Shown one piece after another: positions 45,825 through 46,835 of a stretch of DNA of 64,000 bases (the stretch's first letter is position 1; each line of letters begins with the position of its first letter). The stretch spans positions 1 through 64,000 of IMG/VR virus record IMGVR_UViG_3300042292_000421. The stretch is one strand, 5' to 3'. The notes under the pieces are model-generated. The model did no database searches and was not told the origin of the DNA. It saw only the letters and a program-made list of their open reading frames with translations. This DNA comes from a virus. The position numbers and the translations under genes were made by a program.

Positions 45825-46835
45825 TTAAGCTAAATCGCTTTTCAACAATTTAGATATTGCTTGTACTTCGATATTTACTACACCTAATACACCAAGTGCA
45901 GCCCATCCAAAAAATACAACATTATGTTCATATAAGGTCGTTACTCTTATACCGCTTGTTAAGCTGCTTATAGTTTCCTATAAGATCGGACTATATCTTT
46001 ATCCATTTCTGGATACTACCCATTTCCACTTACTTAAGTGTACTCCCTTTCGGGATAGTCTCTGAACCTTAAACTTATTACTAAGTTTCTTGGCTGCTGA
46101 TTGTCCTTTCGGATGTCCCAGCAATTAAAGTAGTTTTCATTATATTATTACTAATATAAGGAGCCTGTATTATTTTGACCCGTAATGTAAAGGGGCTACG
46201 AATAACTCCTCCATGAACCAGAAAGTATGTCCCCATTCGTTTAAGCCAACGTTTGGAAGAATCATGAAAGGTCCAATTACTGATACTAAGTATTGTAATG
46301 GCAAACCTTTTTGGTAGGTAGGCAAGCGTGTTTTAGCATATAAGAATGCAGAAACGCCTGTGATGATGTAAATAGGATAACTTAGATAAAACTCAATAAC
46401 ATGACTTGGTGTAAAGTCAGTGTCACGAACGATTGTTTGATGCCATGTACCATCTTGTTCTGTAAAGTATGAAGCACCGTAATAAATTGCGATACCATAC
46501 ATTACTAACCAAATCCAGTGTGTAAAGTGACGACGTAATTCTTCGCGTGGTGTAATTGACATTACTTTGCGATCGCGTGATTTCCAAATATAACCCCATA
46601 ATACAGAAGCAGTTAATACTTCAAGTACCATTTCAATATATAGGAAGTTCATCCAATATGTTTCAAACTCTGGTGCAAATGAGTCTAAACCAGCAGACCA
46701 TCCATAAACACCTTCATACCAACGAACCCACCCGTAAAACACTATATATAGTGCTGCACCTGCGAGCATAGCTGGTTTGTTCAAAAGTGAAGCTTCTTTA
46801 GCTTCTGCTTTTACCGTTTCAATTGTAGCTGACAT
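45825..46835 (-). CDS. pmoC: Particulate methane monooxygenase subunit C, split by a group I intron
   Basis: Exon 1 is 46178-46835 (219 codons plus one base), exon 2 is 45825-45919. Joining them restores [17 protein letters not shown] and a 250-aa protein, the normal PmoC length (~250-260). The start is MSATIETVK, 6 bp after AGGAGA; a TTG six codons upstream is less likely. Copper-site residues are all present: D128, H132 and H145 (QDGTWHQ and TPSHVIEF) and N199, H203 and H217 (LNEWGHTF and APLHYG). Transmembrane helices match bacterial PmoC throughout. pMMO oxidises methane to methanol in the intracytoplasmic membranes of methanotrophs; a phage copy could replace or supplement the host subunit. 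No pmoA or pmoB is in the window. Late and early promoters both lie upstream. Confidence 0.95.
45920..46177 (-). ncRNA. Group I self-splicing intron in pmoC (258 nt)
   Basis: Core elements occur in order on the minus strand: P (AATTGCTGGGA, 46116-46126), Q (AATCAGCAGCCAAG, 46089-46102), R (GTTCAGAGACTATCCC, 46052-46067) and S (AAGATATAGTCC, 45988-45999), as in T4 introns. The 5' exon ends in GGGT, which pairs with GCTC (46161-46164) to make P1 with the required U.G at the splice site. TACA (46166-46169) can pair with exon 2 TGTA for P10. The intron ends in G (45920). It has no internal ORF. Confidence 0.95.

Follow-up and report, generated by a model that had tools for sequence, protein, structure and literature searches.

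Among the closest described systems is the psbA intron of cyanophage S-PM2. There, a phage-borne metabolic gene is interrupted by a group I intron that lacks an ORF and undergoes collaborative homing with the adjacent, free-standing gene for F-CphI, an Endo VII-like endonuclease for which cleavage is proven (PMC6083498, citing Zeng et al. 2009; PMC3984707). Phage group IA2 introns with P7.1 and P7.2 are known from T4, Twort and Bastillevirinae, and precedents for multiple introns and tiny exons within one gene are phiNIT1 rNDPL and Twort orf142 (PMC11878797). In phage ICP1, the gene for a T5orf172 endonuclease lies beside the terminase intron, not inside it, and splicing has been seen by RNA-seq (PMC10448857). 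Finally, pmoC genes of phages TP6_1, BML_3, BML_4 and LR_6 have been reported as ‘fragmented’, split in two by a non-coding spacer that is transcribed, and not recognised as intron-bearing, with RNA reads mapped without mismatch to the separately predicted genes (Chen et al. 2020, PMC7674155).

We analysed a 64-kb window, positions 1–64,000 of the 83,186-bp virus record IMGVR_UViG_3300042292_000421, and give coordinates in this window unless stated. The window contains T4-type phage genes (clamp loader, RNA ligase and DNA ligase) and belongs to a lake phage whose pmoC copy is interrupted at the copper site. We consider it likely that the interruption is a self-splicing, ORF-less, IA2-like group I intron that spreads by collaborative homing with a convergent GIY-YIG endonuclease gene. 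The arrangement resembles the psbA system in its ORF-less intron, its phage-borne metabolic gene and its adjacent free-standing endonuclease gene, and resembles ICP1 in having the endonuclease gene beside the intron, in another gene and another host. Unlike the psbA phage, pmoC phages carry putative GIY-YIG endonucleases with zinc-finger-like motifs, and their introns occupy seven sites, with up to four in one gene. IA2-like introns of phages are already known; those of T4, Twort and Bastillevirinae lie in core genes (polymerase, terminase, nucleotide reductase), whereas pmoC is an acquired metabolic gene, and as an intron-bearing gene it is new and environmentally relevant. The original prediction for this locus named phage pmoC genes as known, but none with an intron. 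We found no paper linking pmoC and a group I intron in the open-licence literature, but the earlier ‘fragmented’ pmoC, compared by description, is probably the same phenomenon, and introns would explain it simply. This earlier report, the endonuclease gene and the relatives with empty or other sites are additions to the original prediction.

The interrupted gene and its conserved neighbours, which serve as synteny markers, are arranged as follows.

47142–47729, minus strand: clpP, upstream of pmoC
46178–46835, minus strand: pmoC exon 1, 658 nt, codons 1–219 and the first base of codon 220
45920–46177, minus strand: group I intron, 258 nt, ORF-less and IA2-like, identified by RF00028, covariation and empty alleles
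45825–45919, minus strand: pmoC exon 2, 95 nt including the stop codon, encoding the last transmembrane helix and the C terminus
43313–44671, minus strand: DNA ligase (phrog_114), downstream of the endonuclease gene

The pmoC start codon (ATG at 46835, minus strand) is preceded by an RBS-like AGGAGA. The unspliced frame ends in ...LHYG-SK*, with the stop two codons past G219, just inside the intron, while a join of T46178 with T45919 takes out 258 nt and yields a 250-aa PmoC. The spliced protein scores 404 bits against Pfam AmoC (model positions 6–244 of 245), as compared with 372 bits for the unspliced frame, and aligns end-to-end and gap-free with the PmoC chain (chain C) of PDB 6cxh (E 7e-154). 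The early stop, an exon 2 at 45825–45919 after a 258-nt gap, and a join that restores conserved PmoC had all been predicted, and the coordinates 45825, 45919 and 46178 prove correct to the base. Just upstream, clpP is kept near pmoC in several pmoC phages.

The insertion lies at the CuD site. In Methylococcus, the CuD ligands are Asn227, His231 and His245 (PMC12576850), and an alignment to the 1yew chain places N199, H203 and H217 of the window PmoC at these positions (offset 28). The protein belongs to the AmoC/PmoC family with CuD ligands Asn, His and His, and the copper ligand H217 named in the original prediction is indeed the counterpart of His245. Specifically, the intron splits codon 220 after its first base and lies two codons beyond His217. 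Among 24-residue stretches of PmoC, codons 202–225 rank second in conservation, and intron homing sites persist in places of this kind. This conservation of the protein agrees with the accompanying claim of a target that is hard to mutate, but silent sites there vary.

The window intron has the features expected of a group I intron, and the Rfam search proposed as the test of that assignment succeeded. Searched in the 64-kb window, RF00028 (Intron_gpI) matches 46187–45967 on the minus strand over the full model (1–253) with 87.8 bits (gathering score 50; E 4.7e-21). The conserved core P3–P8 with the P7 pseudoknot is present, and the predicted P1 with U.G, P10 and terminal G are all found, at the positions below.

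Within 46160–46181, minus strand: P1, exon GGGU (46181–46178) paired with guide GCUC, with U.G at the splice site
46056–46060, minus strand: 5′ strand of P7, GACUA, guanosine-binding helix
45989–45993, minus strand: 3′ strand of P7, UAGUC, guanosine-binding helix

P1 is short, at 4 bp, of which one internal pair is G.U. P10 comprises 7 bp, in which AAUACAG, just before the guide GCUC, pairs with the exon 2 start UUGUAUU, and the intron 3′ end reads ...AACATAATG, with G as the terminal base. Between P7 and P3, hairpins P7.1 and P7.2 (helices 8 and 9 of the family alignment) are both 100% paired with covariation, and by their presence we classify the intron as IA2-like. Across the junction, the empty alleles L001 and L002 (L numbers denote viral loci) read CTACGGGT|TTGTATTC, with 89.8% identity to the spliced window gene. 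L012 keeps the clpP–pmoC–DNA ligase order and has neither the intron nor the endonuclease gene. From these features we infer that the window intron splices.

Two scans of IMG/VR for PmoC returned 67 distinct viral loci. Eleven introns, in 7 lineages, interrupt 7 of about 34 distinct gamma-methanotroph-type pmoC loci. They occupy seven sites, six of which fall within 66 nt (codons 203–225) around the CuD site. Sites were placed by spliced alignment and direct reading of L042 and carry window residue numbers, from which the labels of alignment A1 are one or two residues off.

Between G45 and W46: L039
Between G202 and H203: L042
Inside codon F205: L010 and L018
Inside codon F207: L041 and L042
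Between A214 and P215: L023 and L042
Inside codon F220: the window and L009
Between G224 and W225: L041 and L042

The pmoC of L042 contains four introns with internal exons of 13, 23 and 30 nt, and its spliced message still reads as a 24-residue protein stretch. The first of these introns ends (1781–1790 of L042) in A, not the normally invariant G, and may be inactive or compensated.

All introns measure 249–258 nt, and they can be aligned as a single family in which column identity averages 73%. The 11 homologous introns share 12 helices, including the P7 pseudoknot, P7.1 and P7.2, with 98.4% pairing over 62 pairs; two-sided changes occur in 48 of the 62, a value reached in 0 of 500 shuffles of the 11 introns. 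Introns of all seven lineages exceed the Rfam cut-off, and whole-contig searches with RF00028 gave 63.9 bits for L018 and 82.9 bits for L023. Different phages may carry closely similar introns at one site (87% identity at F207), while introns from different sites are less alike. The nearest relative of the window intron is the L042 intron at codon 202/203, with the common guide GGCUCC. Since between-site branches of the intron tree are mostly unsupported, we claim no order of site invasion. Related introns are present in other phage genes, which from reading their translations we name DNA polymerase and anaerobic nucleotide reductase-like, and the family is therefore a phage one that reached pmoC. 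The empty-site and other-site relatives show that the window intron belongs to a set that is recurrent and mobile. A further phage, L190 (record IMGVR_UViG_3300001528_000360, 152 kb), is extremely intron-rich: its contig has 23 matches to group I introns, of which most score over the Rfam cut-off, and several of its genes are split.

The closest bacterial PmoC proteins (92–93% identity) come from Methylococcales such as Methylobacter-like MAGs. No interrupted bacterial pmoC was found among the best 80 GTDB copies. Across 251 Methylococcales genomes, 232 carry pmoC or amoC, with no internal stops among the matches listed. Group I introns are present in at least seven Methylococcales genomes and, where comparable, lie off the pmoC contig or far from pmoC. 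A search of INPHARED phages found no pmoC, so no cultured phage was usable for comparison.

Downstream of pmoC, and convergent with it, lies a candidate homing endonuclease gene, whose 3′ end is about 18 bp from pmoC.

44923–45807, plus strand: candidate GIY-YIG homing endonuclease, 294 aa, free-standing, convergent with pmoC, with a zinc-finger-like C terminus
44923–45204, plus strand: GIY-YIG nuclease domain, with Y9, Y20, G22, E75 and N92 invariant in alignment A2
45793–45818, no strand assigned: palindrome AGAAAGGGGACCTAGGTCCCCTTTCT, resembling a bidirectional terminator, located where the convergent pmoC and endonuclease genes meet and overlapping the endonuclease 3′ end

The GIY-YIG residues lie within the first 94 residues, and R24 is mostly kept in A2. 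The protein scores 20.7 bits against Pfam SegE_GIY-YIG, under the cut-off of 25. In a low-confidence structural model (pTM 0.32; pLDDT about 70–80 in much of the GIY-YIG domain), of which only the N-terminal domain was used, the best PDB match by Foldseek is the I-TevI catalytic domain (1mk0/1ln0; prob 0.99–1.00). The candidate thus appears to share catalytic residues and N-terminal fold with I-TevI and Seg-type GIY-YIG endonucleases, and differs from them in a DUF7487 segment mid-protein and repeated C2H2-type zinc-finger-like motifs at the C terminus. We infer its activity and target from these features and from its position. Comparable genes occupy the same convergent position in L010, L018, L041 and L042; they fall into several subtypes, and most have related C-terminal zinc-finger motifs. 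A convergent endonuclease gene, 18–79 bp downstream, accompanies 5 of the 7 gamma-type loci with introns and 3 of the 26 without (p = 0.004, with loci counted without kinship correction). An adjacent convergent endonuclease-like gene also lies next to intronless pmoC in L014, L036, L040 and L060, which are possibly empty partners or resistant alleles.

A natural footprint of block transfer is found in L018. Compared with L005 and L006, L018 is 97–100% identical over 2 kb upstream plus exon 1 and 98–99% identical in the next gene, and differs in one block comprising the intron, exon 2, the terminator and the endonuclease gene. Within this block, the differences in exon 2 amount to 13–17 substitutions over about 133 nt. 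Where the window and L005 have different bases, L018 agrees with its sibling at 89 of 90 sites in exon 1, whereas in exon 2 it agrees with the window at 13 of 21 (exon contrast p = 9e-11). Furthermore, the L018 intron, at codon 205, shares 95% identity with the L010 intron, and the pmoC of L010 comes from another branch. Such a block is expected when a break at the intron site is repaired from a donor with both intron and endonuclease gene, and it is unusually clear natural evidence for the joint transfer of an intron with a free-standing endonuclease gene. Joint transfer is seen in the relative L018, not in the window, where we find the ORF-less intron beside the free-standing endonuclease gene. 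The window and L010 have 99% PmoC protein identity and the same neighbours and yet carry different introns and different endonuclease genes, indicating that turnover is fast.

In the mechanism that we propose, a P7-bound guanosine would attack after U46178, and the freed exon end would then attack after G45920, so that two transesterifications would excise the intron. The resulting mRNA would encode full-length PmoC, with the CuD ligand His217 and the last helix intact. When phages co-infect a cell, the convergent endonuclease would cut the intronless pmoC of the others at the intron site or close to it, in a highly conserved stretch; in its own genome, the intron would disrupt the target. Break repair would then co-copy the intron, the 3′ exon and the endonuclease gene. 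More speculatively, and on balance improbably, the endonuclease could be a weapon directed at the active-site codons of rival pmoC phages or even of host pmoC, with the intron shielding its carrier. If so, coinfecting phages would engage in interference competition over a methane-oxidation gene, and such competition would drive the repeated invasion of CuD codons.

A rather unlikely alternative to collaborative homing is that the intron splices but the endonuclease gene homes alone, by intronless homing into the pmoC 3′ region with cleavage elsewhere, the intron being inherited, hitchhiking or reverse-splicing. The two elements do occur apart, as an intron without an adjacent endonuclease gene in L023 and L039 and as an endonuclease gene without an intron in the related L014, L036 and L040, and several endonuclease types are found at one spot. 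In addition, the shared guide of the window intron and its L042 relative at another site suggests that the change of site was not driven by site-specific cutting. However, the converted block of L018 starts a few bases from the intron insertion point and reaches the endonuclease gene, consistent with a break at that point, and both elements appear together in the window and L010 versus L012, in L018 versus L005, in L041 versus L031 and in L042 versus L028.

Far less probable is a broken gene, that is, a decaying pmoC with a non-functional insertion that encodes a truncated 221-aa PmoC or two fragments, in line with the description by Chen et al. 2020. The early stop in the unspliced frame, the L042 intron that lacks a terminal G, and the few reads for the C-terminal piece of LR_6 (Chen et al. 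2020, PMC7674155) would agree with decay. Yet zero-mismatch mapping to separate genes loses the reads that span a junction and leaves a short 3′ exon with few, the catalytic core is intact and covaries, and exact empty alleles exist. Moreover, both exons code for conserved protein in an undamaged frame, and seven independent loci are alike.

The in-frame stop just within the intron could also be taken for a regulatory switch set by infection state, with retention giving a truncated PmoC without the His217 context and splicing the active form; this is very hard to believe, since the presence of introns is sporadic among near-identical phages and their sites differ, as expected of a selfish element and not of conserved control. 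An assembly chimera is equally implausible, even in a metagenomic contig, and we rejected such an artefact because L009, from another record, matches 11,008 bp of the window without a difference, and L010/L011 and L018/L020 likewise come from record pairs.

With collaborative homing of the pmoC intron as our preferred reading, pmoC becomes the second acquired metabolic gene, after psbA, that group I introns and a free-standing endonuclease gene have colonised. Phage pmoC genes called truncated or fragmented probably encode complete PmoC with a CuD site. Their share in methane oxidation may therefore have been underrated, and their transcripts may have been counted wrongly. As a practical rule, viral pmoC should be searched for in a splice-aware manner, and near-identical empty and filled phages are available for testing pmoC introns.

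The window has several other features. A phage-borne, permuted tmRNA gene, with the ARAGORN tag AKASKFEYMTVDFSLEAADMVA, lies at 63612–64000 on the minus strand and extends to around record position 64033; RF04321 scores it at 101.9 bits in a search of the entire record. Two giant ORFs lie on the plus strand: one of 3835 aa (21134–32641), for which a Pfam search gave no match, and one of 2042 aa (33326–39454) with fibronectin III domains. The minus strand carries an ATP-dependent protease gene (3166–5466), a NolO-like carbamoyltransferase gene (11752–13392) and a cluster of seven tRNA genes (54469–56222).
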